Shown: positions 5,295 to 48,984 of the stretch, one piece after another | Numbering within the stretch: position 1 is the stretch's first letter | Layout of the letters: each line of letters opens with the position of its first letter | NCBI RefSeq assembly: GCF_004363095.1 | Contig: NZ_SNYO01000002.1 | Coordinates: 620,001 to 684,000 of the forward strand | DNA from: Actinomycetospora succinea | GTDB lineage: Bacteria > Actinomycetota > Actinomycetes > Mycobacteriales > Pseudonocardiaceae | DNA length: 64,000 bases | Direction of reading: 5' to 3' | Notes under the pieces: model-generated | What the model saw: the letters and a program-made list of their open reading frames with translations, nothing else | Told to the model about the DNA's origin: nothing | Databases searched by the model: none | Made by a program: the position numbers and the translations under genes

Positions 5295-7307
5295 GTGCGC
5301 CTGCTGCCGCTCGCCGTCCGCCGCCCCCACGGACGCCCGGCCATCTCGTGCCGCTACCGGTGCGCCGACGCGTGCTCCCGGGAGGCGCCCAACCCGACCG
5401 ACCACACGCCGTTCCGCGAGGTCGCGGCCGCGGCGCTGAGCCGGCGGCGCGTGCTGCAGGCGGGCCTGGTCGCGGGGCTCTCCGGCACCCTCGCCGCGGC
5501 GTGCGGGACGAGCGGCAGTGCGGGTGCCGCGGCGCCCCCGACCGCCCCGATGCCCTCCCCGTTCGGCTTCACCGCGGTCGCCCCGAACACCGAGGACGCC
5601 GTGCGGGTCCCCGAGGGGTTCGACCAGCAGGTCGTCATCCGCTGGGGCGACCCCGTGCTGCCCGGCGCGCCCGCCTTCGACCCGAACGCGCAGACCGCCG
5701 CCGCGCAGGCCCAGCAGTTCGGGTTCAACAACGACTTCCTCGCGCTGCTCGACGTGCCGGGCAGCCCGGGCCGGGCGCTGCTCGTCGCGAACCACGAGTA
5801 CACGACCGAGCCGTTCATGATCCCGGGATACAACCCCGACGCGCCGACCCCCGAGCAGGTCGCGATCGGCATGGCGGCGCACGGGATGTCGGTCGTCATG
5901 GTGCAGCGCGACCCCGCCTCGGGACGCCTGACGCCGGTGATGGACGGGGTCAACCGGCGGATCACCGCGAGCACCCCGATGACGCTGACCGGCCCCGTCG
6001 CCGGCGACGCGCTCGTGCGCACGAGCGCCGACCCCGAGGGCCGCACGGTGCTGGGCACCCTCAACAACTGCGCGGGCGGGGTCACGCCGTGGCGCACGGT
6101 GCTCACCGGCGAGGAGAACATCGACCAGTACTTCGCGAACGGGGAGACGGTCGCCGACCTGGCGCTCGCCCGCTACGGCATGGACGGCGGCGCCACCGAG
6201 CGGAGGTGGGAGGGCGTCGACCCGCGCTTCGACCTCATCCGCGAGCCGAACGAGGCCAACCGCTTCGGCTGGGTCGTCGAGGTCGACCCGTTCGACCCGT
6301 CCTCGACCCCGCGCAAGCACACCGCGCTCGGCCGCTTCAAGCACGAGGGCGCCAACGTCCGCGTCGGCCCGACCGGCACCGTCGCGGCGTACATGGGCGA
6401 CGACGAGCGGTTCGAGTACCTCTACAAGTTCGTCTCCTCGCGCACCCACCGCGCGGGCGACACCCCCGCCGACCGCGAGTCGAACGCCCGCCTGCTCGAC
6501 GAGGGCACGCTGTTCGTCGCCCGCTTCTCACCGGACGCCCCGGGGGGCGGGCCCGACGGCAGCGGCGAGTGGCTGCCGCTGGTGGAGTCGCTCGCCGACG
6601 GCACCGGGCGCTCGTTCGTCCCCGGGATGAGCGCGGCGCAGGTGCTCGTGCACACCCGGATCGCCGCCGACACCGTCGCCCCGACGCCGATGGACCGCCC
6701 CGAGGACGTCCAGCCCCACCCGACCACGGGACGCGTCTACGCCGCGCTGACCAACAACGACGAGCGCGGCACCCCGGGCAAGCCGGGTCCCGACGGCGTC
6801 AACCCGCGCGGCGAGAACACGAACGGCCAGGTCCTCGAGCTCGTCGAGGGCGGCAACGACCCGGGCGCGCGGACGTTCGCGTGGTCCCTGCTGCTGGTGT
6901 GCGGCGACCCCGCCGCCGCGGACACCTACTTCGGCGGCTTCCCGAAGGACCAGGTCTCGCCGATCTCGTGCCCCGACAACGTCGCGTTCGACGCCGTCGG
7001 GAACCTCTGGATCGCGACCGACGGCAACGCGCTGGGCTCCAACGACGGCCTGTTCGCGGTGCCGCTCGAGGGCCCGCAGCGCGGCCGTGTCCAGCAGTTC
7101 CTCACGGTGCCGCGCGGGGCGGAGACGTGCGGGCCGGTGGTCGAGGAGCGCCTGGCGCTGGTGGCGGTGCAGCACCCGGGCGAGTCGGACGACGCGAGCC
7201 TCGCGAACCCGATCTCGCACTGGCCCGACGGCGGGACGAGCGTCGCCCGCCCCGCCGTGGTGTCGGTCTGGCGCGCCGACGGGGGATGGCTCACGCCACG
7301 TGCGTGA
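5295..7307 (+). CDS. phoX: PhoX-family alkaline phosphatase, Tat-exported
   Basis: 670 residues. After a roughly 45-residue N-terminal extension there is a twin-arginine signal, SRRRVLQAG, a hydrophobic stretch, and AAAC, a possible lipobox, so the protein is probably exported folded and may be lipid-anchored. The rest is the PhoX (DUF839) beta-propeller with the typical NHEYTTEPFM, NNCAGGVTPW, TGEEN and YKFVS segments. PhoX enzymes release phosphate from organic monoesters outside the cell, using Ca and Fe. The start is GTG at 5295. PHO box-like repeats upstream and a second secreted phosphatase (PhoD) at 16.8 kb suggest a phosphate-starvation response. The stop codon lies inside a strong hairpin. 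Confidence 0.93.
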   Translation: MRLLPLAVRRPHGRPAISCRYRCADACSREAPNPTDHTPFREVAAAALSRRRVLQAGLVAGLSGTLAAACGTSGSAGAAAPPTAPMPSPFGFTAVAPNTEDAVRVPEGFDQQVVIRWGDPVLPGAPAFDPNAQTAAAQAQQFGFNNDFLALLDVPGSPGRALLVANHEYTTEPFMIPGYNPDAPTPEQVAIGMAAHGMSVVMVQRDPASGRLTPVMDGVNRRITASTPMTLTGPVAGDALVRTSADPEGRTVLGTLNNCAGGVTPWRTVLTGEENIDQYFANGETVADLALARYGMDGGATERRWEGVDPRFDLIREPNEANRFGWVVEVDPFDPSSTPRKHTALGRFKHEGANVRVGPTGTVAAYMGDDERFEYLYKFVSSRTHRAGDTPADRESNARLLDEGTLFVARFSPDAPGGGPDGSGEWLPLVESLADGTGRSFVPGMSAAQVLVHTRIAADTVAPTPMDRPEDVQPHPTTGRVYAALTNNDERGTPGKPGPDGVNPRGENTNGQVLELVEGGNDPGARTFAWSLLLVCGDPAAADTYFGGFPKDQVSPISCPDNVAFDAVGNLWIATDGNALGSNDGLFAVPLEGPQRGRVQQFLTVPRGAETCGPVVEERLALVAVQHPGESDDASLANPISHWPDGGTSVARPAVVSVWRADGGWLTPRA

Positions 7308-18443: not shown

Positions 18444-18489
18444 TATGTGAGCGAACTTCGGTGCTATAGCACCGAAGTTCGCTCACATA
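18444..18489. terminator. Perfect 46-bp palindrome at a gene end
   Basis: Arms 18444-18466 and 18467-18489 are exact reverse complements with no spacer, centre CTATAG, outer ends TATGTGAGCG. It includes the TGA stop (18485-18483) of the minus-strand gene. It lies between convergent phoD and the selenoprotein operon, and probably ends the latter. Confidence 0.8.
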
Positions 18490-19403
18490 CGGACGGTGAC
18501 GGGGCGGGAGCCGCCCATCCAGCCGGGCAGGTGGAGCATCTTGACGCCCGGGCCGCCGGCGACGATCGGGAGGACGTCGCCGACCCGGTGGCCCAGCGCC
18601 GCATCGCCTCGTCGTCGCAGCTCCGCCACGAGATCGGCGACGTCGGGGAAGGTCGGCGCGAGGCGCGCCGCGACCTCGGGCGGGAGGACGACCGCCTGGG
18701 TCAGGTCGCGCCCGAGGGTGAGGTCACCGGCGGCGCGGACGGCGCCGGCGAGCGCCTCGGCGAGGGGGTCGAGCACGGCGTCCGGGTCGGGGCGGTCGTC
18801 GCGCGGCAGGACCTCGGCGGTGCCGCCGATCGGGAGCACGGTGACCGAGTCCGGCGCCGTGCCCCACGGTCCGGACGGGTCCGCGGCGAGGCAGCACGTG
18901 TAGCGGGCGGGCTGGGCGGTGGTCGCCATCGTCGTGGTGCCGGGCTGCACGCCGCCGGCGGTCGCCAGGGTCAGCGCCAGCGCCCGGCCGACCGCGCCGT
19001 TCGTGTGCGGTCCGGGGCCGAGCATCCCGGTGCCGTGGGTCAGCCCGATCCGCGCGGCGACCGGCCCGGCGACGATCATCGCCACGGCCGCCGTCCCGGT
19101 CGTCGTCGCGACGCCGAGCAGGTTGAGCTCCGGCGCCAGGCACGCCGTGGCGGCCGTGAGCACGACGGGCAGCGCGCCCGCCGGCGCCCCCGCCAGCACG
19201 CAGCAGGTCGCCGTCAGCCGCGCCGTCAGCGACCCGAACAGCGGCGGCACCGCCCCGAGCTCGGCGTCCGGGTCATCGGTGTCCCCGAGCACCGCCGCCA
19301 CCCGCGACGGCGTCGGCGGCACCACCGGGAGCCCGTCCCCGATGCCCTCCGCGAGCAAGGACGCCGTGGCCTCGACGACGTCGGTGCCCTCGGGGACGAT
19401 CAC
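18483..19403 (-). CDS. UGSC-operon partner protein B (same family as domain fused to UGSC selenoprotein)
   Basis: 306 residues, no characterised family that I can name. It starts with IGDGLPVVPPTPSRVAAVL, shared in pattern with the gene at 19400 (GDGLPTIPPTEERVAAML) and with the C-terminal region of the 21796 gene (TDGLPIVPPTPERVAAFL). All three then share a Cys-containing segment before PVVL/PVLL, Gly-rich ...GPV..R.G..... and NGAVGRAL/NAVIGRAL/NTAVGRFL. Members are Cys-containing cytosolic proteins without signal peptide. GTG 19403 overlaps the stop of the upstream gene (GTGA). It is the last gene of the operon; its stop is in the 46-bp palindrome. Partnership with the selenoproteins is inferred from operon and fusion. 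Confidence 0.75.
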   Translation of the reverse strand: MIVPEGTDVVEATASLLAEGIGDGLPVVPPTPSRVAAVLGDTDDPDAELGAVPPLFGSLTARLTATCCVLAGAPAGALPVVLTAATACLAPELNLLGVATTTGTAAVAMIVAGPVAARIGLTHGTGMLGPGPHTNGAVGRALALTLATAGGVQPGTTTMATTAQPARYTCCLAADPSGPWGTAPDSVTVLPIGGTAEVLPRDDRPDPDAVLDPLAEALAGAVRAAGDLTLGRDLTQAVVLPPEVAARLAPTFPDVADLVAELRRRGDAALGHRVGDVLPIVAGGPGVKMLHLPGWMGGSRPVTVRM

Positions 19404-20413
19404 GGCACCACGCGCGACACCAGCGCCGTCCCGCCGAAGGACGGGATCCACGCCGAGTGCTTGCCGGCCCCGCCGGCCACGGCGATGTGCAGGTTCTCCG
19501 GGTCGTCGCTGACCGTGTACGCGTCCCCGTCGGGCTCGACGCCCCACTCGACGAACTGCCGCCTGTTGCCCTCCGAGACGTGCGCGACCGGGATGCGCGC
19601 GTGCTCCCAGAGGTGCGCGCGGATCGACGCGGGCGTCCACCCGTCGCGGGCCAGCGTCGCGGCGTGCTCGGGCCCGAGCAGCAGCAGGTGCGGCCCGCGG
19701 ACGTAGACGTTGTTCGAGCCCGGCTGCGCCATCGTCCCGGCGACGGTCAGGAGGATCTCCGCGCCGGTGGTGCTGCCGTGGTCGTTGACGTTGTGCGGCG
19801 GTTCGGCGGCCATGACGGACACGACGCTGTCGCCCGCCGCGAACCCCCGCTGCACCGCCAGCGGGTCCCACGGCGTCTCGTCGGACTCGGCGAAGCAGAA
19901 CGTGTACTTGGCCGGCGAGCCCTGCGTGGAGCGGTCGAGCACGCCCGGTCGCGCGCCGCCGACGTGCAGCAGGACGAGCGAGAGCGCCCGCCCGATCACG
20001 GCGTTGGCCCGCGCGCCCTGGCCGAGGCAGTTGCCGCCGCCGTTGAGCCCGAGCGCTGCGCGCACCGGGCCCGAGACCATCACCATCGGCGCGCACGGGT
20101 GCGTCGTCGCGAGCGATCCGTGCAGGTTGTAGGCCTCGTCCTGCACCGCGCCGACCGCCGCGAGCACCACCGGCAGGTCCGCCGGCCGGCACCCCGCCAT
20201 CACCGCGTTCGCCGCGATCGAGCGCAGCGTCGGCGTGACCCCGCGCGGCGGGAGCGGGCCGAGCTCGACCGCCGGTGCCCCCGCCAGCATCGCCGCCACC
20301 CGCTCCTCGGTCGGCGGGATCGTCGGCAGCCCGTCGCCCCAGCCACGCTCCTCGCACGCGGCCATCCACGCCCAGGCGTCGTCGACGTCCGGTAGGTCCA
20401 GCACGTCGCTCAC
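19400..20413 (-). CDS. UGSC-operon partner protein A
   Basis: 337 residues, paralogue of the 18483 gene and of the C-terminal domain of the fused selenoprotein. Recognisable blocks: GDGLPTIPPTEERVAAML near residue 26, ANAVMAGCRPADLPVVLAAV near 70 (the fused protein has NGVMAGCRPQDLPVLLAIV), MVSGPVRAALG near 112, RANAVIGRALSLVL near 135, and a C-terminal IRAHLWEHARIPVAHV. The conserved Cys in MAGC is a candidate redox or substrate-binding residue. GTG 20413 overlaps the stop of the small selenoprotein gene by 4 bases, so the pair is translationally coupled, supporting complex formation. Reaction unknown. Confidence 0.78.
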   Translation of the reverse strand: MSDVLDLPDVDDAWAWMAACEERGWGDGLPTIPPTEERVAAMLAGAPAVELGPLPPRGVTPTLRSIAANAVMAGCRPADLPVVLAAVGAVQDEAYNLHGSLATTHPCAPMVMVSGPVRAALGLNGGGNCLGQGARANAVIGRALSLVLLHVGGARPGVLDRSTQGSPAKYTFCFAESDETPWDPLAVQRGFAAGDSVVSVMAAEPPHNVNDHGSTTGAEILLTVAGTMAQPGSNNVYVRGPHLLLLGPEHAATLARDGWTPASIRAHLWEHARIPVAHVSEGNRRQFVEWGVEPDGDAYTVSDDPENLHIAVAGGAGKHSAWIPSFGGTALVSRVVP

Positions 20414-20940
20414 GACAGTTCCCCCATCCCGCGCAGCTCCGCGACCACCCCGGCGTACGCCGCCTCCTCGCGCCCGGCGAACTCCTCCGGCGACAGCCCG
20501 CCGATGGGGTGGTCGACGACGACGAGCCGGGGTTCGGCGCGGCGTGCCTTGGCCTGCGCCTGCACGAGCGGCAGGAACGACGAGGTGACGACGAGGATCG
20601 AGCGCATGCCGCGGCGCTCGAGCTCGAGCGAGTCGTGGAGACTCCACGACGAGCACGAGCCTCAATCACCGATCGCGACGACGGCGAGGCGGTACTGCGC
20701 GGCGAGGTGGTCGAGCAGCTCCGGGTCCGCGCCGACGGCCGCGCTCGGCTTCGCCTCCAGCCCGTTCGGCCCGATCCCGTGGTCGTCGGCGAGGCGCCGC
20801 CCGACGGCCTCGAGGAGGTCGTGGGCGCCGGGCTTGGAGTTGGAGAGGCCGCAGAGGGCGCCCGCCCGGCTCCCCTCGGAGACGGCCACGGCCACCGTCT
20901 CCGACGACGCGATCCCGGACGTCGGGTCGACGATGTGCAT
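20410..20940 (-). CDS. UGSC-family selenoprotein (in-frame UGA at 20664-20662 read as Sec)
   Basis: 176 residues if the UGA codon 93 is read through as selenocysteine (U). Up to it: MHIVDPTSG..., LCGLSNSKPGAHDLLEAV, then VVAIGD-U-GSC-SSWSLHD, and the same frame continues without interruption as LELERRGMRSILVVTSSF to MGELS. Both halves are coding-like, neither is a complete domain alone, and U-G-S-C is the defining motif of the UGSC family (seleno)proteins. A hairpin starts right behind the UGA (20622-20661). ATG 20940 shares a base with the stop of the flavoprotein gene and has GAGGAG upstream. The Sec reading needs selA/B/C/D elsewhere in the genome. Function of the family is unknown; UxxC suggests redox chemistry. 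Confidence 0.85.
20622..20661 (-). promoter_or_regulatory. Predicted bacterial SECIS hairpin, small UGSC gene
   Basis: Directly after the UGA the mRNA can pair GCUCG with CGAGC (outer 5 bp), a symmetric 5x5 internal loop, then GUCGUGGA with UCCACGAC (8 bp) around the apical loop GUC. The loop starts with G and lies 20 bases after the UGA, inside the 16-37 base window of bacterial SECIS elements. Confidence 0.65.
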
Positions 20941-21795: not shown

Positions 21796-23505
21796 TCACT
21801 CCGAGCCCTCCTCGATCCGCCGGCTCACCGGCACACCCTGCACGTGGTTCTGCACGAAGCCGCGGGACTGGTTGCGGCTCGCGTTGCCCGCCAGCACGAT
21901 CCCGATGTCCTCCGCCCGCGGCACCATCGGGACGAGCCGGTCGGGGTCGGCGCCCGCGTAGCGCTCGTCGAGCTCGCCGGCCGCCACCGAGGCGTCGAGG
22001 TCGAAGCTCGTCGACCCGACGTTCCAGGCGCAGGCCTGGAGCTGGCGCACCGGCACCCGCATGTGCTCGGCGAGGTGGCTCCGCAGCGCGTCCTTGTCGA
22101 CACCGAAGCCCGCGAGCGCCGTCGCCACCGCCGGCCCGAGGACGAGCAGCGGGTGGAACGCGCCGAACTCCAGCCCCGTGTAGGCCCAGGGTCCGATCGC
22201 GTTGCCGAAGATCGTCGTCAGCGCCTCGAGGTGGTCGGCGGCCGTCTCGCCGCCGGAGTAGATCGGTGCGCTCACGGCGACGACGCTCTGCACGGTGACG
22301 ACGCTGTCGCCGTCGTCGAAGCCCCGGTCGACGCGGAACGACGGCCAGCCCAGCGACCGCACGGCGGCGTCGTCCTCGGCCAGCGCGACGTGCCACGTCG
22401 AGGCGATCGCGCCCTGGTCGGTCTGCCCGGGCAGGATGCGCAGGCCCGCGATGTTGCGCAGGTACAGGCGCAGGAAGCGCCCGACGGCGGTGTTCGCGCG
22501 CCGCCCGACCCGCAGCGCACCGGTGCCGCTGTGGAAGCCGAGTCGCTCCACGACCGGCCCGGACAGGACGACCAGGGGCTCCCACCCCGGCGTCGATCCC
22601 GCGTCCTGGACGCGGAACACCGGGTCGGCGACGCACTCCACGATCGCCAGCAGCACCGGGAGGTCCTGCGGCCGGCAGCCGGCCATGACGCCGTTGACCG
22701 CGACGCTGCGCACCGTCGCCTGCCGCAGCTCAGGCGCGAGCACGCCGAGGACCTCGTCGGGGTCGCGGCGGGTGTGGTCGAGGAACGCCGCGACCCGCTC
22801 CGGCGTGGGCGGCACGATCGGCAGGCCGTCGGTCCAGCCGCGGGCGTCGAACAGGTCGTGCACCGCGTCCAGGTCACCGCGGGCGACGATCTCGGTGGGG
22901 CCGTGGTCGTCCTGCTCCGGCTCCTCCGGCACCACCGTCGCCGAGCCCGCCACCAGCGCGTCCACCACCGCCGGCGCCACCTGCTCGCGCATCTTCTGCC
23001 GGAACACCTCGGTGGGGTCGGTGAGGATGACGCCGGGGTAGCTGACGATCGGGACGTGCCCGACGCCGAGCGACTTCCCGACGGCCCGCCCCATGCCCTC
23101 GAACCCCGCGCCGCCGATCGCGACCGCCGGGACCCCGGCGCGCTCGGCGGTGGCCGCTGCCCGCATCACGGCAGGCATGCAGGAGCCTCAAGCACCGACC
23201 GCGGCGACCACGAGGTCGACGCGGTGGGCGCGCAGCAGCTCCGGCAGGGCCTCGAGGACGCGGCGCTCCTCGGCGGCCGACGCGTGGAAGTTGCCGAACT
23301 CCTCCCACCCGACGAACCCGACGTCGCCGTGCCGCTCGCGCGCCACCTCGGAGATCACGACGAACATCTCCGGGCCGCGGAAGAGCTCGTCCCAGAGGTA
23401 GGCCACCCGCCGGCCCGCCAGCGACGACGGACGCTCGTGCTCGGCGACGTCGCCGACCTCGCGGGGGCCCAGCGGGCCCAGGACCTCGTAGTGCGGCTCG
23501 CTCAC
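21796..23505 (-). CDS. UGSC selenoprotein fused to partner domain (in-frame UGA at 23190-23188)
   Basis: 569 residues with Sec at position 106. The N-terminal part (VSEPHYEVLGPLG ... LVVAAVGA) runs to the UGA; translation continues in frame as U-GSC-MPAVMRAAATAERAG, GGAGFEGMG, SYPGVILTDPTEVF to about residue 210. A short acidic linker leads to a C-terminal domain (about 240-560) homologous to the proteins at 18483 and 19400. The UGSC motif sits at the same place relative to the following ER-x-G-V/M segment as in the 20410 gene. GTG 23505 has AGGGAG upstream and starts 8 bp after the transporter stop. Conventional calling would give a fragment beginning at the ATG four codons after UGA. Function unknown; a Sec-dependent redox enzyme is inferred. 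Confidence 0.85.
23153..23176 (-). promoter_or_regulatory. Predicted bacterial SECIS hairpin, fused UGSC gene
   Basis: Starting 11 bases after the UGA: GCCUGCC pairs with GGCA-(GC bulge)-GGC around an 8-base loop GUGAUGCG whose first base is G. The loop begins 19 bases after UGA, nearly the same as in the small gene. The stem is weaker than there. Confidence 0.45.
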
Positions 23506-23513
23506 GGGGCTCC

Positions 23514-24830
23514 CTACTCGTCCGCGGTGATGACGCGACCGGCGCGGTCGCGCAGGAACAGGGCGGCGACGGTGACGATCGCGGCGCCGACGACGGCGAT
23601 GCCGACCGCGATCCCGTAGCCGGCGCTCGTGGCGACCACGCCGCCGATGATCGTCCCGATGCCCGACAGGCCCCGGCCGATGTTGTAGGCGGCGGCCGAG
23701 CCCAGCGAGCGGATGCGGGTCGGGAACAGCTCGCCGAACCACACCCCGAAGATGCCGAAGTAGCCGAGGAACAGGCTGGACGCCAGGTAGAGCCAGACGA
23801 AGTTGTTCAGCCCCGTCCCGCCGAGCGCGAGCACCAGCATCACCGCGAACGTGACGGTCTGGAGCGCGGCGAACGTGACGAACACGCGCCGGCGTCCCCA
23901 GCGGTCGGACATCCAGCCGGCGAGGATGAAGCCGACGAACGAGATCGCCGAGGCGACGTAGAGCACGAGGCTCGCGGTGCCCGCGTCGAAGCCGAGGTCG
24001 GACTTGAGCATCGAGGGCATCCACGCCGTCGCCGTGTAGGGCACCCACTGCGCACCGAACGCGACGACCAGGCCGACGAGCACGATCGGCAGCGAGTCCC
24101 GCGCGACGAGCTGCCGCCACGGCGAGCGCGACGCCTTCTCCGCCGTCGTGCCGGTGAGCAGGCCCGCGGCCTTGCGCCGCTGCAGCTCCTCCCACTGGCG
24201 CGACTCGCGGCACCCGAAGCGGATCCAGATGCAGGCGAGCGCGGGCAGGACGCCGATGAGGAAGGCGAGCCGCCAGTTGTCCGAGACGAGCTGGGCGACG
24301 AGCACGGCGAGCGCGTAGGCGGGCCACAGCGACGCCTGCACGACGCCGCCGCCGAGCCCGCGGCGCTTCGGTGCCCAGGCCTCGTTGAGCCAGGCGAAGC
24401 CGACGGCCCACTCGCCGCCGGTGCCGATGCCGGTGAGGATCCGCAGCACGAGGAACACCGCGAAGTTCGGCGCGAAGAAGACCAGACCGGTGGCGATCGA
24501 GTAGATGAGGATCGACCAGATCAGCGTGCGCCGGCGCCCGTACCGGTCACCGAGCCAGCCGAAGAGCACGCCGCCGATCGCCGAGCCGACCAGCTGGCCC
24601 GCCACGGCGACGCCGAAGAGGCCGGCCGAGACGTCGAAGTCGGCCATGATCGCCGCCGCGAGCAGCGTCGGGAGCATGAAGTCGAAGTACTCCATGCCCC
24701 AGCCCAGGCACGCCGCGCCGAGGATGCGGCGCCGCTCGCCGGGGGTGTACTCCGGCGGCTCCGTCCCGGCCGGCGCGGCGGTCCGCGTCGTGCCCGCGCC
24801 GGTGTCCGGGCGGTCCTGCTCGGCGGTCAT
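23514..24830 (-). CDS. MFS transporter, metabolite:H+ symporter type
   Basis: 438 residues, 12 predicted transmembrane helices. MFS signatures: GWLGDRYGRRRTL in loop 2-3, RILTGIGTGGEW in helix 4, and GWMSDRWGRRRV in loop 8-9, typical of the sugar/aromatic acid/sialate symporter branch. It probably imports an organic acid. ATG 24830 was preferred over GTG 24848 because GGAGGA lies seven bases before it. First gene of the selenoprotein operon; a GntR operator lies 86 bp upstream. The substrate is likely what the operon and the divergent acyl-CoA genes process; that is inference. Confidence 0.9.
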   Translation of the reverse strand: MTAEQDRPDTGAGTTRTAAPAGTEPPEYTPGERRRILGAACLGWGMEYFDFMLPTLLAAAIMADFDVSAGLFGVAVAGQLVGSAIGGVLFGWLGDRYGRRRTLIWSILIYSIATGLVFFAPNFAVFLVLRILTGIGTGGEWAVGFAWLNEAWAPKRRGLGGGVVQASLWPAYALAVLVAQLVSDNWRLAFLIGVLPALACIWIRFGCRESRQWEELQRRKAAGLLTGTTAEKASRSPWRQLVARDSLPIVLVGLVVAFGAQWVPYTATAWMPSMLKSDLGFDAGTASLVLYVASAISFVGFILAGWMSDRWGRRRVFVTFAALQTVTFAVMLVLALGGTGLNNFVWLYLASSLFLGYFGIFGVWFGELFPTRIRSLGSAAAYNIGRGLSGIGTIIGGVVATSAGYGIAVGIAVVGAAIVTVAALFLRDRAGRVITADE

Positions 24831-24905
24831 GGGTTCCTCCGCGGTCACCGCGCGTCGCTGCGCGCGCCGTTCGTGTGACGGAGGTTAGGTGGGTCACAGC
24901 GACCG

Positions 24906-24934: not shown

Positions 24935-25609
24935 CTACGCCCTCGGGGGCAGCCCCAGGGCGGCGCTCAGGTCGGCGACGGTGTGGTCGCGGTGCGCGTC
25001 CATCAGCGCGACCACCGCCTCGGTGTCCCCGCGGCGCAGCGCGGTGATCATCTTGCGGTGCTCGCGCACCACCCGGGCGCGGCCGCCGGAGTCGTAGAGG
25101 TGCACCGTCCGGTAGGGCTCGCTGCGCCGCCACAGGCGGTCGATCTCGTCGACGACGAGGTCGAGCCCCGAGAGCCGGAACATCGCGAAGTGGAACGCCT
25201 GGTTGGCGGCGACGATGCCGGCCACGTCGACCTTGTCGACCTGCTCGGTGATCGCCTCGTTGAGCGCCGTGAGCTCGCGGAGCTGGTCGGCGGAGAGCCG
25301 CGGGAAGGCGCGGATGACCTCGGTCTCCAGGGCCCGGCGCATGAGGTAGACCTGCGCGAGCTCGTCGGCGTTGAGCCGCGCCACGGCGTAGCCGACGTGC
25401 GGCTCGTGGCGCAGGACGCCCTCGGCCTCGAGCGTCTTGAGGGCCTCGCGCACCGGGATGCGGCTGACGCCGAGGCGCGCCGCGAGCGTCTCCTGGCGCA
25501 CCTGCTGGCCGGGGACCAGCTCGCGCGAGCGCAGCATCCGGCGGATCTCCGCCACCGCGCGCTGCACGCTCGTCGCCCGTCGCGCGGGCTCCGTCTCCGT
25601 GCTGACCAC
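24935..25609 (-). CDS. GntR/FCD-family transcriptional regulator
   Basis: 224 residues. Winged helix at about 15-80 (RQETLAARLGVSRIPVREALKTLEAEG is the GntR signature region) and an FCD ligand-binding domain with metal-binding His and Asp residues (FHFAMF, EHRKMITALRRGD, HRDHT). FCD regulators usually sense organic acids. GTG 25609 has GGGGAGGTGG upstream. It lies between the two putative operators at 24916 and 25655, which flank it exactly, so autoregulation and control of both the transporter-selenoprotein operon and the divergent acyl-CoA operon are likely. Confidence 0.9.
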   Translation of the reverse strand: MVSTETEPARRATSVQRAVAEIRRMLRSRELVPGQQVRQETLAARLGVSRIPVREALKTLEAEGVLRHEPHVGYAVARLNADELAQVYLMRRALETEVIRAFPRLSADQLRELTALNEAITEQVDKVDVAGIVAANQAFHFAMFRLSGLDLVVDEIDRLWRRSEPYRTVHLYDSGGRARVVREHRKMITALRRGDTEAVVALMDAHRDHTVADLSAALGLPPRA

Positions 25610-25654
25610 CGCTCCACCTCCCCCGCAGGAGCGTAACGGGTGCGCGTCTGCACA

Positions 25655-25720: not shown

Positions 25721-27805
25721 GTGAGCACCGACTGGGACCGGGTCCTCGCGCCGCGCTCGGTCGCCCTCATCGGCGCCACCGGCCGTGCGGACAACCCCAT
25801 GGCGCGCCCGCTGCGCTGGCTCACCGAGCGGGGCTTCGCCGGACGGGTGCACCCGGTCAACCCGAAGTACGCCGAGCTGGGCGGGGTGCCGTGCGTCGCC
25901 TCGCTCGCCGAGGTCCCGGGCGGCGTCGACCTCGCGCTCGCCCTCGTCCCCGCCGAGCGGGCCGCCGCCGCCGTCACCGAGGCCGGGGCGGCCGGCGCGG
26001 CCGCGGTGGTCGTGTTCGCGTCCGGGTTCGCCGAGGTCGGCGACGAGGGCCGGGCGCTGCAGGACGAGCTGGTCGCCGCCGCGCGCGCGGCCGGCACCCG
26101 CGTCCTCGGGCCCAACTGCCAGGGCCTCTACGACGCGCGCAGCCGCCTGTTCGCGACGTTCACCGGCGCCGGCGAGCGCCCGCTGACCGGCTCCAGCGGC
26201 ATCGCCTACGTCGGGCAGAGCGGGGCGATCGGGGGCTCGGTGCTCGACGTCGCCGCCGAGCGCGGGCTCGACCTGTCGGCCTGGGTCAGCACCGGCAACG
26301 AGGCCGACGTGTCGCTCACCGAGATCGGGCGCCACCTCGTCGCCAACCCCGAGATCACGGTGCTCACCGTCTACGCCGAGTCGCTGCCCGACCCCGACGA
26401 CTACGCCGCGCTCGCGGCCGAGGCCCGGGCGCACGCCACGGCCCTGGTCGTCCTGCGCTCCGGGCGCTCCGAGCCCGGGCGGCGCGCCGCGGTCTCGCAC
26501 ACCGGCGCGATGCTCGGCGACGACACGGCCTTCCGCCTGGTCTCGCGCCGCCACGGCGTGGTGCTCGTCGACGACGTCGAGGAGCTGCTCGCGGCCGCCA
26601 CCATGCTGCGGGGCCGGCACGGGCCCGCCGGGCGCTCGGTCGGGCTGGTCACGAGCTCGGGCGGCGCCGGCATCCTCGCCGCCGACCGGGCCAGCGACGC
26701 CGGACTCGCGGTCCCCGAGCTGACCGCCGAGACCCAGGAGAAGCTCGCCCGCCTCGTGCCCGCCTTCGGCGCGGTGGCCAACCCCGTCGACGTCACCGCG
26801 CAGCTGTTCAACGACGGCGGCGAGTTCGGCGAGGTCTGCGGCATCGTGCGCGCCGACGCGTCGGTGGACGCGGTGCTCGTGCTGCTGACGATGCTCGTCG
26901 GCGAGACCGCGGTGGCGCTCGCCCGCGACCTCGCCGCCACCGTCGCCGAGCAGGGCCCCGACGCCCCGCCCGTCGCCGTCGTCTGGATGGCCGGCGAGGA
27001 CGGCACCGCGCCCGCCCGGGCGCTGCTGCGCGAGGCCGGCATCCCGGTGTTCTCGTCGATCGCGCTCGCGGTGCGGGTGCTCGACGCCGTCGCAGCGCCG
27101 CCCGGAGCGGTCCCGGCACCGACCGCTCCCCTCGACCCGGTCCCCGGCGACGGCTGGGACCTGCTCGACGCGCTGGGCGTGCGGCGGGCGCGGTCGCTGC
27201 GGTCCTCCGACCCGGCCGGCGACGTCGCCGAGCTCGGCGGCACCGCCGTCCTCAAGGCCGAGGGGCTCGAGCACAAGACGGAGTCCGGGGCGGTCCGGCT
27301 CGGCGTCCGGACGAGCGAGGCGGCCGCGGTGCACGCCGAGCTGGCCGCGCTGCCGGGCGTCACCGGCGTGCTCGTGCAGGAGCAGGTGCCGGCCGGGGTG
27401 GAGCTGCTGGTGTCGGTGGACGGCGGGCGGGACGGCTGGCCGCCGGTGCTCACGGTCGGGCACGGCGGCACGGCCACCGAGGTGCACCGCGACGTCGTCC
27501 ACGCCCTCGCGCCGGTCACGCCCGAGACGGCGCGGACCATGCTGGGCGAGCTGCGCTGCTGGCCGCTGCTGGAAGGTCACCGCGGCGCCCCGGGCGTGGA
27601 CCTCGACGCCGCCGTCGACGCGATCGTCCGCCTCTCCCGCGCGTGCGACGTCCCCGGGCTCGGCGAGCTGGAGGTCAACCCGCTGGTCCTCCGGCCGGCG
27701 AGTCGTACCAGCGATGCGGCTTCGCTGGCGTCAGAAGCCAGGATCGCCACACGCTCGGATCCGCGACACGCCGTGGCGGTCGACGTGCTCAGGACGGAGA
27801 AGTAG
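25721..27805 (+). CDS. Acyl-CoA synthetase (NDP-forming type) with in-frame repeat insertion
   Basis: 694 residues. Domains: CoA-binding Rossmann (1-130, GATGRADNPMARP), succinyl-CoA ligase-like flavodoxin domains (about 145-450) with the phospho-His segment VSHTGAMLGDD near 257, and a C-terminal ATP-grasp domain (about 480-690, VLKAEGLEHKTESGAVRLG, ELEVNPLVLRP). This layout is shared by ADP-forming acetyl-CoA synthetases and pimeloyl-CoA synthetase-like ligases that activate organic acids. Between NPLVLRPA and AVAVDVL lie about 24 extra residues (RTSDAASLASEARIATRSDP) encoded by the 72-bp repeat at 27702; relatives normally pass straight from NPL to AVAVDV. Leaderless GTG start. First gene of a five-gene operon. 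Confidence 0.88.
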   Translation: MSTDWDRVLAPRSVALIGATGRADNPMARPLRWLTERGFAGRVHPVNPKYAELGGVPCVASLAEVPGGVDLALALVPAERAAAAVTEAGAAGAAAVVVFASGFAEVGDEGRALQDELVAAARAAGTRVLGPNCQGLYDARSRLFATFTGAGERPLTGSSGIAYVGQSGAIGGSVLDVAAERGLDLSAWVSTGNEADVSLTEIGRHLVANPEITVLTVYAESLPDPDDYAALAAEARAHATALVVLRSGRSEPGRRAAVSHTGAMLGDDTAFRLVSRRHGVVLVDDVEELLAAATMLRGRHGPAGRSVGLVTSSGGAGILAADRASDAGLAVPELTAETQEKLARLVPAFGAVANPVDVTAQLFNDGGEFGEVCGIVRADASVDAVLVLLTMLVGETAVALARDLAATVAEQGPDAPPVAVVWMAGEDGTAPARALLREAGIPVFSSIALAVRVLDAVAAPPGAVPAPTAPLDPVPGDGWDLLDALGVRRARSLRSSDPAGDVAELGGTAVLKAEGLEHKTESGAVRLGVRTSEAAAVHAELAALPGVTGVLVQEQVPAGVELLVSVDGGRDGWPPVLTVGHGGTATEVHRDVVHALAPVTPETARTMLGELRCWPLLEGHRGAPGVDLDAAVDAIVRLSRACDVPGLGELEVNPLVLRPASRTSDAASLASEARIATRSDPRHAVAVDVLRTEK
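27702..27773 (+). repeat. 72-bp dispersed repeat inside a coding sequence
   Basis: Same element as 11697-11768 (reverse orientation), 60 of 72 positions identical by hand count. Core CCAGCGATGC-G-GCTTCGCTGG keeps the palindrome with one mismatch. 72 is a multiple of three, so the host gene remains open and gains about 24 codons. Confidence 0.8.
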
Positions 27806-28543
27806 ATGGGCTCCATCGGTCTCGAGATCACCGACGGCGTCGCGGTCCTGACCGTCGACGCCCCCGACGTCCGCAACGCGCTGACCCCGGTGATGGGCCG
27901 CGAGCTGGCCGACGCGTGCGACACCGTCGACGCCGACCGTTCCGTCGGCGCCGCCGTCGTCCGCGGCGCGAACGGCACGTTCTGCTCGGGCGCCGACCGC
28001 CGCACCTGGAACCCCGGCGCCGACCAGGCCGAGGACGGCGCCTTCCGCGACACCGGCGCGGTCTACGGCGCGTTCCGGCGCGTCGGCACCCTCGCCGTCC
28101 CGACGATCGCCGCCGTCCGCGGCGCCGCGGTCGGTGCCGGGATCAACCTCATGCTCGCCACCGACCTGCGCGTCGTCGCCCGCGACGCCCGCCTCCTCGC
28201 GGGCTTCCTGCGCATCGGCCTGCACCCCGGCGGCGGCTTCTTCACGATCGCGAACCGCACCGCCGGCCGCGAGGCGACCGCCGCGATGGGCCTGTTCGGC
28301 GAGGAGATCGACGGCACCCGGGCGGCCGAGATCGGGCTGGCCTGGCGCGCGGTCGCCGACGAGGACGTCGACGACACCGCCCTCGCGCTCGCGGCCGTGC
28401 CGGCGAAGGATCCGGACCTGGCCCGCGAGGCCGCGCGCTCGTTCCGCACCGAGACCGGCCCGCCGGGCCTGCCGTGGGACGCGGCCGTCGAGTTCGAGCG
28501 CGCCACGCAGATGTGGAGCCAGCGCCGGAGGGGAACCCAGTGA
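27806..28543 (+). CDS. Enoyl-CoA hydratase/isomerase family protein (first)
   Basis: 245 residues, crotonase fold: ITDGVAVLTVDAPDVRNALTP, oxyanion-hole segments FCSGADRRTW and AAVRGAAVGAGINLMLATDLRV. In the catalytic region GFLRIGLHPGGGFF the usual hydratase glutamates are not evident, so it may be an isomerase, thioesterase-like or C-C hydrolase member rather than a classic hydratase. ATG directly follows the stop of the ligase gene (TAGATG), so it is co-translated. The start of the next gene overlaps its stop (GTGA). Confidence 0.85.
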   Translation: MGSIGLEITDGVAVLTVDAPDVRNALTPVMGRELADACDTVDADRSVGAAVVRGANGTFCSGADRRTWNPGADQAEDGAFRDTGAVYGAFRRVGTLAVPTIAAVRGAAVGAGINLMLATDLRVVARDARLLAGFLRIGLHPGGGFFTIANRTAGREATAAMGLFGEEIDGTRAAEIGLAWRAVADEDVDDTALALAAVPAKDPDLAREAARSFRTETGPPGLPWDAAVEFERATQMWSQRRRGTQ

Positions 28544-29685
28544 TCTTCGACCCGACCCCGCTGTCCGCCGACGAGGAGAAGCTGCGCGAGGAGGTCCGCG
28601 CGTTCCTCGCCGACACCCTCCCCGACGGCTTCCGGCCCGGACTGGGCCTCGGCGGGCGCCACGACCCGGAGTTCACGCGCACGCTCGCGAAGCGCGGCTG
28701 GGTGGGCATGTCGATCCCCACCCGGTACGGCGGCGCGGGCGCCAGCACGGTGCGCCGATTCGTCGTCATCGAGGAGCTGCTCGCCGCGGGCGCCCCGATC
28801 GCCGCGCACTGGATCGCCGAGCGCCAGTCCGCGCCCGCCTTCCTGCGCTTCGGCACCGAGGAGCAGCGCGAGTGGTTCCTGCCCCGGATCGCGGCCGGCG
28901 AGTGCTGGTTCTCGCTCGGCATGAGCGAGCCCGACGCCGGCTCCGACCTCGCGTCGGTGCGCACCGCGGCCACCCGCGTCGACGGTGGCTGGCGCGTCAC
29001 CGGCACCAAGGTGTGGACCACCAACGCCCACCTCAACCACTTCGCCGCGATGCTCTGCCGCACGACCCCGCAGGGCGAGGGCGATCGTCACGCCGGGCTC
29101 TCGCAGCTCATCGTCGACCTGTCCGACGAGGACGTGCACGTCTCGCCGATCCCGCTGATCGACGGCGAGGAGCACGTCAACGAGGTCGTGCTCGACGGCG
29201 TGTTCGTCCCCGACGAGCGGGTGCTCGGCGAGGTCGGGCAGGGCTGGGCGCAGGTCACCGCCGAGCTCGCCCACGAGCGCTCGGGCCCCGACCGCTACCT
29301 CTCGGTCCTCGGCCTCTACCGCGCGTTCCTCGACGTCCACGGGCGCGTCCCCGACGACGTCCGCGCCGCCGCGATCGGACGGATCGGCGCGCAGATGTGG
29401 ACGATCCGCCAGCTCTCCCTGGCCGTCGCGCGCGCCCTCGACGAGGGCGAGGCCCCCGCGGTGGAGGCGTCGCTGGTCAAGGACATCGGCACCACGTTCG
29501 AGCAGCAGGTCGTCGAGACGCTGCGCGACGCCGCGGGCGGCGAGATCGACCCGGGAGGCCCGACGATGTTCGACGTGCTGCTCGCCGAGTGCGTGCTCAA
29601 CGCCCCGACGTGGACGCTGCGCGGCGGCACCACCGAGGTGCTGCGCGGGATCGCCGCCAAGGCGCTGACGCGGGGTGCGCGATGA
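28540..29685 (+). CDS. Acyl-CoA dehydrogenase, subunit 1 of an adjacent pair
   Basis: 381 residues. Family motifs: GWVGMSIPTRYGGAGAS in the N-terminal helical domain, WFSLGMSEPDAGSDLAS and WRVTGTKVWTTNAHLNH around the FAD site, and the C-terminal RGGTTEVLRGIAAKAL. It oxidises an acyl-CoA to the enoyl-CoA with FAD. GTG 28540 overlaps the previous stop and has GGAGGGG upstream. The following gene encodes a second, shorter and divergent acyl-CoA dehydrogenase with a 4-bp overlap. Such pairs form heterotetramers in mycobacterial sterol and acid catabolism, so a heteromeric enzyme is likely. Confidence 0.92.
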   Translation: MIFDPTPLSADEEKLREEVRAFLADTLPDGFRPGLGLGGRHDPEFTRTLAKRGWVGMSIPTRYGGAGASTVRRFVVIEELLAAGAPIAAHWIAERQSAPAFLRFGTEEQREWFLPRIAAGECWFSLGMSEPDAGSDLASVRTAATRVDGGWRVTGTKVWTTNAHLNHFAAMLCRTTPQGEGDRHAGLSQLIVDLSDEDVHVSPIPLIDGEEHVNEVVLDGVFVPDERVLGEVGQGWAQVTAELAHERSGPDRYLSVLGLYRAFLDVHGRVPDDVRAAAIGRIGAQMWTIRQLSLAVARALDEGEAPAVEASLVKDIGTTFEQQVVETLRDAAGGEIDPGGPTMFDVLLAECVLNAPTWTLRGGTTEVLRGIAAKALTRGAR

Positions 29686-30737
29686 GCGCCGGGGCCGATC
29701 TGCGCGAGGTCCGCGACGCCGTCGCCGACCTGCTCGCCGACCGCGTCTCCCCGGAGGTCCTCGAGGCCGCCGAGCGCGACGGCTGGGCCGCCGGGGTGTG
29801 GGAGCCGCTGCACGCGGGCGGGTTCACGACGGTCGGCGTCCCCGAGTCCGCGGGAGGCGCGGGCGGCTCGGTGGCCGAGGCGTGCGCGGTGCTCGAGGCC
29901 GCCGGTGCCGCGGCCGCGCCGGTGCCCGTCGCCGAGACCGGGCTGCTGGCCGGGCGCCTGCTCGCCTCCGCCGGTCTCGCGCTGCCGGACGGGGCGCTGA
30001 CGACCGGCACCGGTGACGTCCGGTTGCGCGACGGGTCCCTGGCGGGCCGGCTCGCGCGGGTCCCGTGGGCGTCGGCCTCGTCCCGGATCGCGGTGCTCGC
30101 CGACGGTCCCGACGGCGTGGTGGTCGCGGTCGTCGACCCGGCCGCCGCCCGCATCTCCGCTGGTCACAACCTCGCCGGCGAGCCCCGCGAGAGCGTCGAC
30201 CTCGACGGCGTCGTCCCCGAGACCACCGCCCCGGCGCCCGCCGACGCCCGCGACCTCCTGGCCCGCCGCGGCTCCCTCGCGCGCGCCGCGCAGATCGCCG
30301 GCGCCGCCCGCCGGGTCCTCGAGGTCACCGTCACCTACACCGGCGAGCGCGTGCAGTTCGGGCGCCCGGTCTCGAAGTTCCCGGCCGTCGCCGACCACCT
30401 CGTCCGCCTCGCCGAGCAGGCCGAGATGGCGGCGATGGCCGCGCGGTCCGCGGCGGTCGGCGCCGGCCCGGACGGCGAGCCGGCGGAGCTCGACGTCGCT
30501 GCCGCGTCCGCCGTCGCCTCCGAGGCGGCCGGCCTCGTCGCCGCGGCTGCGCACCAGGCGACCGGGGCGATGGGCGTGACCCGCGAGTTCTCGCTCGGCG
30601 TCCTGACCCGGCGGCTCTGGTCCTGGCGCGACGAGTGGGGCGGTGAACGGGCGTGGTCGACGCGGCTCGGCCACACCCTCGCCGCGGGCGGCCCGGAGGC
30701 GCTGTGGCCGACGATCTCCCGCGGAGTGAGGGTCTGA
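29682..30737 (+). CDS. Acyl-CoA dehydrogenase-like protein, subunit 2
   Basis: 351 residues. It has the helical N-terminal domain (FTTVGVPESAGGAGG) and a C-terminal domain (GERVQFGRPVSKFPAVADHLVRLAE, HQATGAMGVTREFSLGVLTRRLW), but the middle beta domain is short and lacks the MSEPDAGSD motif, so FAD and substrate contacts are incomplete. Together with the 4-bp overlap to subunit 1 this fits the non-catalytic partner of a heteromeric acyl-CoA dehydrogenase. ATG 29682. One base separates its stop from the next start. Confidence 0.87.
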   Translation: MSAGADLREVRDAVADLLADRVSPEVLEAAERDGWAAGVWEPLHAGGFTTVGVPESAGGAGGSVAEACAVLEAAGAAAAPVPVAETGLLAGRLLASAGLALPDGALTTGTGDVRLRDGSLAGRLARVPWASASSRIAVLADGPDGVVVAVVDPAAARISAGHNLAGEPRESVDLDGVVPETTAPAPADARDLLARRGSLARAAQIAGAARRVLEVTVTYTGERVQFGRPVSKFPAVADHLVRLAEQAEMAAMAARSAAVGAGPDGEPAELDVAAASAVASEAAGLVAAAAHQATGAMGVTREFSLGVLTRRLWSWRDEWGGERAWSTRLGHTLAAGGPEALWPTISRGVRV

Positions 30738-46927: not shown

Positions 46928-47886
46928 GCGTCCTCCTCGGTCAGGCGGGCGAAGAGCTCCTCGAGGTGGGCGCGCCGGCGGTGGACCTCCCACACGGCGA
47001 CCCCGGCCCCGACGAGCGCCGCCACGATCTCGGGCGCCTCGAGCGAGCCCGGCGGGACGGCCACGCCGCCGTCGGCGCGGTACGACGGCGCCCCGGCCTC
47101 GCGCAGCGCCAGGATGGCGTCGTCGACGTCCGGCGTGCTGACGACCAGCCCGCCGGTGTCCGCGTCGAGCAGCGCGCGCAGCTCGCCGGACACCAGCAGC
47201 GTGCCGGTCTGCAGCACGGCCACGTGGGTGCACACGGCCTCGACCTCGGCGAGCAGGTGCGACGAGAGCAGCACCGTCGCGCCGGCGTCGCGCAGGTCGG
47301 CGACCACCCGGCGCACGTCGCGCGTCCCGGCGGGGTCGAGCCCGTTGGTGGGCTCGTCGAGCACGACCAGCCGGCGCGGCACGAGCAGCGCCGCCGCGAG
47401 CCCGAGGCGCTGCTTCATGCCGAGCGAGTAGCCGCGGTAGCGCCGGCGGGCGGCGTCGGCGAGCCCGACGCGCTCGAGAGCCGCGTCGACGGGGCCGCGC
47501 AGGTCGCCGTCGAGGCGGGGCTCGGTGGCGGCGCAGCGCAGCAGGTTGTCGCGCCCGGAGAGGAACGGGTGGAAGCCGGGGCCCTCGACGAGCGCCCCGA
47601 CGTCGGGCAGCGCCGCCGCGAGGTCGTCGCCGCCGTGCCCGAGGAGCTCCACCGTCCCGGCGGTCGGGCGCGTGAGCCCGAGCAGCATCCGGATCAGCGT
47701 GGTCTTGCCCGACCCGTTCGGCCCGAGCATCCCGAGCACGGCGCCGGCGGGGACGTCGAGGTCGACGTCGTCGATCGCGACGGTGGACCCGAACGTCTTG
47801 CGCAGGCCACGGACCCGGGCGGCGACCGTGGCGTCCGGCGGCGCGGGCGCCTGCGACGTCGACGGGCGGGAGGTCGCCGCCGTCAC
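46924..47886 (-). CDS. ABC transporter ATP-binding protein
   Basis: 320 residues. Walker A GPNGSGKTT, Q-loop region, signature YSLGMKQRLGLA, Walker B LVVLDEPTNGLDP and switch His in LLSSHLLAEVE. The C-terminal 80 residues form a regulatory extension (STPDVDDAILALREAG). BcrA/CcmA-like family used by ABC-2 exporters. GTG 47886 overlaps the stop of the LolA-like gene (GTGA) and its own stop overlaps the permease start, so the three genes are a coupled operon. Confidence 0.92.
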   Translation of the reverse strand: MTAATSRPSTSQAPAPPDATVAARVRGLRKTFGSTVAIDDVDLDVPAGAVLGMLGPNGSGKTTLIRMLLGLTRPTAGTVELLGHGGDDLAAALPDVGALVEGPGFHPFLSGRDNLLRCAATEPRLDGDLRGPVDAALERVGLADAARRRYRGYSLGMKQRLGLAAALLVPRRLVVLDEPTNGLDPAGTRDVRRVVADLRDAGATVLLSSHLLAEVEAVCTHVAVLQTGTLLVSGELRALLDADTGGLVVSTPDVDDAILALREAGAPSYRADGGVAVPPGSLEAPEIVAALVGAGVAVWEVHRRRAHLEELFARLTEEDA

Positions 47887-48929
47887 TGCGCGAGGGCCTC
47901 GGTGAGCACCTGCTGCGGCACCGCGCCCGCCGCGATCCGGCCGTCGTCGGTGACGATCACGGTGGCGACCGCCGTGGTGATCGCGCGCCCGCTGCCCCAC
48001 GGGCCGCTGACCGGGGTGCCGAGCGCGGAGAGGTCCGGCGCGCCCTCGGGACGCTGCTGCTGCTCCCCGCCCTCACGGGCGGGCGCGCGGCCGACGATCA
48101 CCGTGTCCCAGCCGTCGCCGACGGTGCGGCGCTCGCCCTCGGGGCGGCCCTGCTGCCCGTCGGGTCGACCCCCGTCCTGGCCGTCGCGCACGGTCGTCCC
48201 GGGCGGCGGGGTGAAGGTGAACAGCGACGGGTCCTGCGGACCGTAGGTGATCTCGGAGAAGCCGACCTGCAGCGCCGGCTCGGCCGATCCCTGCGCGAGC
48301 ACGGTGAGCTGCAGCGGCAGGCGCGTCTCGGCGTCGACGGCGACCCGCACCTCGCGCAGCAGCGTGCGCTCGGTGGGCTGCGGCGTCAGCACCAGCTGGT
48401 ACGCGGCGCGCCCGGCGACCTCGGCCGTGCCGTCGACCGCGACGGTGCTGGTCTGGCGCAGGGTGGCGATGGCCTGGGTGGCCGCGGTGGTCGGGTCCTG
48501 GTCCTGGCCCGGGGCACCCTCGGGCGGACCCTGGTGGTCGCCGGCCGGCGAGCGCGTCGCCGTGCGGTCCTGCGAGTCGTACGCCCAGCGCGTCGTCCCG
48601 TCGGAGACGAGCGTGCGCTCGCCGTCCGGCGACGGGATCGCGACCCGGCCGCGGCCCTCGCCACCGGACCACACGCGGATCGTCGACGTGCCGTTCGCGA
48701 GCTGGGGCGCGCCGGGGACGGCGGGCAGCCCGAGGGCGTTGTCGACCTCGACCTCGCCGGCCAGCGGGCCGCGCTGCGCGGTCATCACCGAGGACACGAG
48801 GTCCTCCGGGCTGATCGGCGGCAGCACCGGCGCCGCGGCGGCCCCAGCCGGCGCCACCACGAGCCCCACCCCGACGGCGGCCACCAGCCCGGCCCCGAGC
48901 CCTGCCCCGACCCACTTCCTGCGTCCCAT
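47883..48929 (-). CDS. Exported LolA-like lipoprotein carrier-fold protein
   Basis: 348 residues. An N-terminal signal peptide (MGRRKWVGAGLGAGLVAAVG, Ala-rich cleavage region near 35) precedes a LolA/LppX-like domain: PLAGEVEVDN, STIRVWSGGEGRGRVAIPS, TRWAYDSQDRTATR, AYQLVLTPQPTERTLLREVRVAVDAET. A Gln/Gly/Glu-rich insertion (about 255-300) and a C-terminal TTAVATVIVTDDGRIAAGAVPQ follow. Its place as first gene of the ABC operon suggests a periplasm-side lipid or glycolipid handover function; inference. ATG 48929. An 8-bp inverted repeat lies 23 bp upstream. Confidence 0.82.
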   Translation of the reverse strand: MGRRKWVGAGLGAGLVAAVGVGLVVAPAGAAAAPVLPPISPEDLVSSVMTAQRGPLAGEVEVDNALGLPAVPGAPQLANGTSTIRVWSGGEGRGRVAIPSPDGERTLVSDGTTRWAYDSQDRTATRSPAGDHQGPPEGAPGQDQDPTTAATQAIATLRQTSTVAVDGTAEVAGRAAYQLVLTPQPTERTLLREVRVAVDAETRLPLQLTVLAQGSAEPALQVGFSEITYGPQDPSLFTFTPPPGTTVRDGQDGGRPDGQQGRPEGERRTVGDGWDTVIVGRAPAREGGEQQQRPEGAPDLSALGTPVSGPWGSGRAITTAVATVIVTDDGRIAAGAVPQQVLTEALAQ

Positions 48930-48951
48930 GACCCCATCGTGGTCGCCGGTT

Positions 48952-48968
48952 GCTGAGACGGTCTCAGC
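48952..48968. promoter_or_regulatory. Inverted repeat upstream of the LolA-ABC operon
   Basis: GCTGAGAC-G-GTCTCAGC, 8-bp perfect arms around one base, 23 bp before the LolA-like start codon. Likely an operator. Confidence 0.55.
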
Positions 48969-48984
48969 GTCGGCGGCTCGGCGT

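Follow-up and report, generated by a model that had tools for sequence, protein, structure and literature searches.

A predicted selenoprotein of Actinomycetospora succinea joining a UGSC domain to an unnamed partner domain, and the two-component reductase it may represent

In the analysed stretch of the Actinomycetospora succinea genome (64,000 nucleotides of contig NZ_SNYO01000002.1, referred to here as the window), a long minus-strand reading frame is interrupted by a single TGA followed by codons for Gly-Ser-Cys, and the question raised by this locus is whether one long protein or two shorter ones are made from it and what the product would do. Annotation would split the gene in two at the stop; one selenium-containing protein is almost certainly made instead. 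The reading preferred here, which is given a probability of about two in three as a whole, is that the gene encodes a selenocysteine (Sec)-containing fusion whose two domains are components of one enzyme, a reductase of the GrdB/PrdB kind fed by a thioredoxin reductase (TrxR)-like flavoprotein.

An earlier note on this DNA had claimed that a second TGA (23190-23188) is followed in frame by GSC within a joined product of 569 residues, that a UGSC domain is there fused to a partner domain, and that two UGSC selenoproteins, one free and one fused, lie in one operon. These claims were borne out. The minus-strand frame read from the GTG at 23505 to 21796 was reproduced with that TGA as its sole internal stop and a joined product of 569 amino acids, and the sequence after the TGA reads GSC-MPAVMRAAATAERAG. 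The Pfam profile PF24696 matches the fused product with 84.5 bits (gathering score 25) over residues 8-185, across the TGA, and the C-terminal domain can be aligned to the two free-standing proteins that end at 19400 and 18483. The U/C-G-S-C motif that marks PF24696 is present as UGSC at residue 106 in eight of eight genomes. A search of both strands for the word TGA-Gly-Ser-Cys (TGAGGN followed by Ser and Cys codons) has revealed exactly two occurrences in the window, in the fused gene and in the small UGSC gene, and the features of the region are collected in Table 1. The G+C content by codon position in the fused gene was 0.84/0.44/0.97 before the TGA and 0.77/0.52/0.98 just after it, and by this measure an antisense or overlapping frame was ruled out as the real gene.

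Table 1. Features of the fused gene and its surroundings in the window
Feature	Position	Strand	Basis or detail
UGSC-partner fusion, predicted selenoprotein gene	21796..23505	-	GTG start, 569 aa via one TGA
In-frame TGA, predicted Sec106, motif AUGSC	23188..23190	-	frame, relatives and codon comparison
UGSC domain (PF24696), residues 8-185	22951..23484	-	Pfam profile; AF2 model
Predicted bSECIS hairpin of the fused gene, 7 bp stem, 6-nt loop CGUGAU	23158..23177	-	begins 17 nt after the TGA
Partner domain of the fusion (copy C), residues 209-569 approximately	21799..22881	-	alignment to A and B
TrxR-like flavoprotein, CATC motif, 275 aa	20940..21767	-	profile match
Small free-standing UGSC, predicted selenoprotein, 176 aa via one TGA	20410..20940	-	Pfam profile and frame
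In-frame TGA (predicted Sec) of the small UGSC gene, motif DUGSCSSWS	20662..20664	-	relatives
bSECIS hairpin predicted in the small UGSC gene (stem of 8 bp, loop GUC)	20632..20650	-	folding
Partner A (337 aa), separate homologue of the fusion's partner domain	19400..20413	-	alignment
Partner B (306 aa), a further separate homologue	18483..19403	-	alignment
MFS transporter, first gene of the run	23514..24848	-	profile match
GntR/FCD regulator, upstream of the run	24935..25639	-	
Divergent catabolic genes, whole block	25721..30737	+	
ADP-forming acyl-CoA synthetase-like	25721-27805	+	
Enoyl-CoA hydratase	27806-28543	+	
Acyl-CoA dehydrogenase family proteins, two	28540-29685 and 29676-30737	+	

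A scan of named genomes has provided seven relatives for comparison, six of Actinomycetospora and one of Pseudonocardia ammonioxydans, the closest (81-94% identical) being Actinomycetospora. The fusion, its TGA and the GSC codons are kept in all seven (8/8 genomes with its own), the opposite of an absence from all relatives, which the earlier note had named as the outcome that would count against it, and the TGA of the small UGSC gene is likewise kept in 7/7. The same TGA in the same frame in all seven relatives rules out a sequencing error or a pseudogene. Purifying selection acts on the frame before the TGA, where 6% of comparisons show a difference at codon positions 1 and 2 as against 26% at position 3, and chance read-through is ruled out on this ground as well.

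Over the next 18 codons, beyond the TGA, third-position differences fall to 5%, in contrast to the 26% upstream. Fourfold sites of the fused gene vary at 3 of 13 in codons +1 to +18 versus 53 of 68 elsewhere in the compared stretch (Fisher p 2.6e-4), and those of the small UGSC gene at 4 of 10 versus 37 of 45 (p 0.012). This synonymous-site freeze overlies the predicted hairpin, whose stem, loop sequence and distance from the UGA are the same in 8/8 distinct fused-gene rows. Of the distinct UGSC rows taken from the loci, 43 of 46 with Sec but 6 of 36 with Cys have, after that codon, a stem of 7 bp or more whose loop carries a G at its first or second position; because the rows are related, these figures are a contrast and not a test. 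The 38 Sec rows that do not belong to the fused group show a compensated stem pair (C-G in 24, G-C in 13, neither in one). The stability of the hairpin of the fused gene is unremarkable (z -0.65; for the 8 distinct fused-gene rows, codon-preserving shuffles give p 0.20-0.34); over all rows the mean z was -1.2 for Sec versus -0.25 for Cys, with p <=0.05 in 13/46 versus 5/36, and an Rfam scan of the window gave no matches at gathering scores. The folding comparison draws on 82 distinct rows that have the motif, 46 of them with Sec and 36 with Cys, and on one more, L102, a UGSC match that lacks it.

Components for Sec insertion were found in the genome: tRNA-Sec (74.8 bits), SelA (402 bits) and SelB (253.9 bits, cut-off 242.25), with selA, selB and tRNA-Sec sharing one region with a formate dehydrogenase. 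tRNA-Sec scores above cut-off in all 18 genomes of the genus that were searched, its own included, and UGSC is found in 13 of these 18, where the 27 UGSC places listed contain exactly one TGA each. In the proteome of Actinomycetospora chiangmaiensis SelA, SelB, SelD and formate dehydrogenases (FdhA) with predicted Sec were detected, and formate built up without selenite and hardly with added selenite (PMC7176365). An in-frame UGA kept across 8/8 genomes, with Cys homologues at the equivalent place, is what is expected of a bacterial selenoprotein. The claim of a selenoprotein, already made from the sequence, is thereby strengthened by the machinery, the kept TGA, the hairpin with its frozen synonymous sites and an uninterrupted Cys-containing fusion in another member of the family (L035), and decoding of the TGA at 23190-23188 as Sec appears close to certain. 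On contig 16 of the same genome (L027, 11922-14516), a formate dehydrogenase alpha frame that begins at profile position 223 lies near selA, selB and tRNA-Sec, and it is possibly another Sec gene cut at its TGA.

The C-terminal domain of the fusion is 36% identical to partner A over 318 columns and 30% to partner B over 296 columns, the fused domain, A and B being three paralogues of 30-36% identity. No match was obtained for the partner domain or proteins in Pfam and NCBIfam at E values up to 1, the partner profile retrieved from PDB sequences only two 'timeless' chains (E 0.22), and the fused protein had no match in the PDB by sequence. Five small-UGSC rows, which had been forced onto the partner domain, were left out of the partner alignment. 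Searches located the partner in 15/120 genomes of the family and 18/296 of the class, and UGSC in 28/396 of the phylum.

The two families are nearly always found together. Searches starting from UGSC gave 29 loci (L058-L086, the best 29 of 46 places listed) and those starting from the partner gave 54 (L029-L057 and L087-L111), two sets that overlap within genomes, so that their counts are non-independent. In the first set the partner adjoins on the same strand in 28 of 29 loci, 27 by profiles built for this analysis plus L083, where the partner lies beside a partial Pfam UGSC match in a single open frame of 583 amino acids; L084, which is under the Pfam cut-off, has neither UGSC nor partner by these profiles. 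In the second set UGSC adjoins on the same strand in 50 of 54 loci, the rest being three fragments (L057, L103 and L111) and L106. Both gene orders occur, in 63 and 36 of 99 overlapping UGSC matches. Eight annotated plasmid records were examined of 24 with a match, and in these eight the pair was found on plasmids of Variovorax, Roseovarius, Arthrobacter, Natrinema, Halalkalicoccus and Paracoccus, with the partner annotated as 'hypothetical protein' in all eight and the selenoprotein gene cut at its TGA in one. Because the partner family nearly always adjoins this kind of selenoprotein, the halves most likely cooperate, and from this genomic evidence joint action of UGSC and partner is considered highly probable. 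The earlier note had reached the same conclusion by a 'Rosetta-stone' argument, which the near-obligate adjacency in many lineages and the repeated fusion make stronger than was claimed.

Two single records are worth mentioning in this context. L106 (G598, contig 1) is alone among the 54 partner-first loci in carrying a near-full-length partner that lacks a UGSC within 1.5 kb. In plasmid CP038202 of Paracoccus ferrooxidans (L188), the UGSC selenoprotein at 6360-6929 is split into two hypothetical proteins at the TGA, with the partner gene beside it and selB 3.3 kb further along.

UGSC and partner in one frame with no further stop were found in the group of the window (the named relatives L020-L026, together with G042 and G118, two other genomes of the genus), and the search for other fusions that the earlier note had suggested has also revealed them in L032 (Sec, another genus of the same family), in L035 of that family with Cys, and, with Sec-like UDGC, in L082 of another family. 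L035 is a natural control, with the same architecture, Cys at the motif and no stop. Single annotated proteins of 561 and 574 amino acids, in which a UGSC-like domain with the motif MGTS is joined to the partner, occur in Vibrio europaeus and Sporomusa termitida, respectively; lacking both residues, they show that the two domains can be paired where neither Sec nor Cys is present. When fusion is mapped on a tree built from 93 partner rows, four changes are required, at least two of them forced by well-supported branches; several rows lie on long branches, and L083 was left unlabelled as fused.

The fused frame of L082 (genome G305) has its TGA in the motif U-D-G-C and is without a good hairpin, so that Sec is unsure in this case; the same genome contains a second place on contig 47. 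The MGTS fusions are plasmid-borne (L187, 6392-8077, in Vibrio europaeus; L186, 6284-8008, in Sporomusa termitida) and lie near genes for aconitase X and DUF126.

The fused gene belongs to a minus-strand run of close or overlapping genes in the order MFS transporter, fused gene, TrxR-like gene, small UGSC gene, partner A and partner B. The TrxR-like protein shares with TrxB a pyridine-nucleotide-disulfide oxidoreductase domain and a CxxC motif, which is CATC, CASC or CAAC in 8/8 operons, although it is short and divergent and reaches only 140.7 bits with TIGR01292, below the equivalog cut-off of 343.45. A TrxR-like gene was found within 6 kb in 14 of 56 loci, eight of which are the operon type of the window itself, the others being Variovorax, Roseovarius and Arthrobacter, whose genes were seeds of the search profile, together with L112, L129 and L137, the last with the gene on the opposite strand. 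An annotated trxB adjoins the pair in Roseovarius, trxB and trxA do so in Arthrobacter, and trxB is two genes off in Variovorax. Neighbours at other loci include SDRs, ABC and TRAP transporters, CoA-transferases, acyl-CoA dehydrogenases and IclR or LysR regulators.

The structure of the joined product, whose prediction the earlier note had proposed as a check, has been modelled with AF2 at middling confidence (mean pLDDT 76, pTM 0.67). In the model Sec106 lies between strand 98-102 and helix 110-122 of a parallel alpha/beta sheet. The PDB matches of the UGSC model are generic alpha/beta, Rossmann-like folds (best Z 10.8). A thioredoxin fold had been suggested for UGSC in a 2008 paper (PMC2398784); the AF2 model, at its middling confidence, does not support it. 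Partner A was modelled with a pLDDT of 80 and a pTM of 0.82, and its comparison with the PDB by Foldseek and VIA-align gave a best E of 5e-3 and no Z of 5 or more, a result that assigns no known fold to the partner and gives no proof of a new one.

The Sec-bearing half was compared with known selenoproteins by profile alignment in hhalign. UGSC aligned to the Sec half of GrdB with 77.6% and 1.9e-5 in a single comparison, Sec on Sec, versus 0.1% for reversed GrdB, and to PrdB with a weak 37%, Sec on Sec and Cys on Cys, versus 0.8% for reversed PrdB; an earlier set with fewer UGSC rows had given 47.6% for GrdB and 35.6% for PrdB, the latter with Sec one column off. The partner scored 0.1% with the GrdE profile (PF09338), equal to its reversed control (0.1%), and PF07355 had no match in the fused product at E values up to 1 and none in its own genome. 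On these comparisons the Sec half appears GrdB-like, and the partner shows no resemblance to GrdE, the known neighbour subunit of GrdB. The systems have in common a U-x-x-C motif, taken for GrdB and PrdB from the table of a review (PMC9312934), and a neighbouring gene for a second component (GrdE in the case of GrdB, the partner in that of UGSC), while they differ in that UGSC has no PF07355 match and the partner no detectable likeness to GrdE. Full-length GrdB was found in 11 of the 246 genomes of the phylum searched, with GrdE adjoining in ten and a GrdE fragment in the eleventh (L152-L162, L190-L201), and these are glycine-reductase-type operons in actinobacterial lineages.

The preferred reading can be set out as follows. 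One selenoprotein of 569 amino acids would be made, consisting of a UGSC domain, whose Sec106-Gly-Ser-Cys109 stands where a helix begins, and a partner domain; UGSC and partner would be two components of one enzyme, encoded here by the fusion, one separate UGSC gene and two separate partner genes. NADPH would reduce the CxxC of the neighbouring TrxR-like flavoprotein, and the electrons would then pass to the Sec-x-x-Cys of UGSC, perhaps via thioredoxin. In glycine reductase, electrons are supplied by thioredoxin. The selenolate might attack a small imported substrate, probably of carboxylate type, held or activated by the partner domain, and the resulting selenosulfide would be reduced again, in a working mode likened to that of the selenoproteins GrdB and PrdB of glycine and D-proline reductase. 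The enzyme would accordingly be a catabolic reductase fed from NADPH, and the odds that it is a reductase of the GrdB type are judged to be even. Sequence evidence shows the unbroken frame with its kept TGA, the hairpin, the Sec machinery, the near-obligate pairing and the repeated fusion; the path of the electrons, the reductive chemistry, the part played by the partner and the class of substrate are inferred.

A different function has been considered for the same fused protein, namely that of a peroxidase, a disulfide reductase or another protein of thiol-redox protection in which the partner is a scaffold or client-recognition domain. The U-x-x-C motif and the linkage to TrxR would suit such a role, but it is rather unlikely in view of the UGSC model, which at middling confidence is a parallel Rossmann-like sheet with no obvious thioredoxin fold, of the profile link, which is to GrdB, and of neighbours of catabolic type (transporters, CoA-transferases, acyl-CoA dehydrogenases, SDRs and LysR, IclR or GntR regulators). 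It is distinctly improbable that the partner domain catalyses a non-redox reaction, such as an isomerisation, elimination or hydrolysis, with Sec or Cys serving in regulation or as a nucleophile lost in some lineages; the MGTS fusions of Vibrio europaeus and Sporomusa termitida near aconitase X genes would be explained in this manner, but Sec or Cys occupies the motif in all 82 distinct rows described above, a set outside which these two fusions lie and to which only the motif-less L102 has to be added. A non-redox role is also disfavoured by the cost of Sec, which is normally reserved for catalysis of a redox or nucleophilic kind. Hardly credible is an ordinary stop at the TGA giving a 105-amino acid protein and then, by reinitiation or translational coupling, a separate 460-amino acid protein from the ATG four codons on, for although this ATG (23178) is kept in all 8 genomes compared and has a GAGG 7 nt ahead of it, that GAGG belongs to the TGA-GGC codons themselves, PF24696 is complete only with both halves, the GSC motif and the hairpin straddle the break, the TGA is kept in 8/8 genomes though sense codons would be free to arise, and the Cys homologue L035 reads through in a single frame. 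A short form may be made alongside the long one.

Turning from these alternatives to the Sec-containing fusion and its family, UGSC and a fusion of UGSC to a domain named 'Unknown_1', conceivably the partner discussed here, were reported in 2008, and UGSC was among the commonest selenoprotein families in ocean metagenomes, with 255 sequences in the table of that paper (PMC2398784). A 2026 review lists the family as NF041046 in a group of selenoproteins with largely uncharacterised functions (PMC13188914). The fused copy shares with the known family (PF24696, NF041046) the domain, the Sec-Gly-Ser-Cys motif and the existence of Sec and Cys forms, and differs from it in scoring below the NCBIfam equivalog cut-off (45 versus 125 bits), in having MPAV after the motif and in its partner without a Pfam or NCBIfam match; the small UGSC protein, with 106.8 bits, is also under the same cut-off. 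A search by title among open-licence papers has returned nothing recognisable on the function of UGSC, the partner family, their pairing or a link to GrdB. As a tentative proposal, held at slightly less than even odds, UGSC and its unnamed partner may constitute an undescribed class of two-component selenoenzymes, a TrxR-driven reductase whose GrdB-like Sec domain would act on a substrate that is bound by a partner of possibly new fold, occurring in actinobacteria, proteobacteria and haloarchaea (and in firmicutes as a motif-less fusion only, in the record examined), in many catabolic operons and fused more than once. Through its near-obligate pairing, the reductase encoded nearby and the connection to glycine reductase, UGSC becomes an enzyme system that can be tested.

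A third UGSC selenoprotein gene of this genome, of the UGSCTSCS type and with one TGA, is located on contig 8 at 47780-49287 (L009, L028). It belongs to a subfamily other than that of the operon in the window, and the profile match of a fourth partner gene ends about 20 nt away from it.
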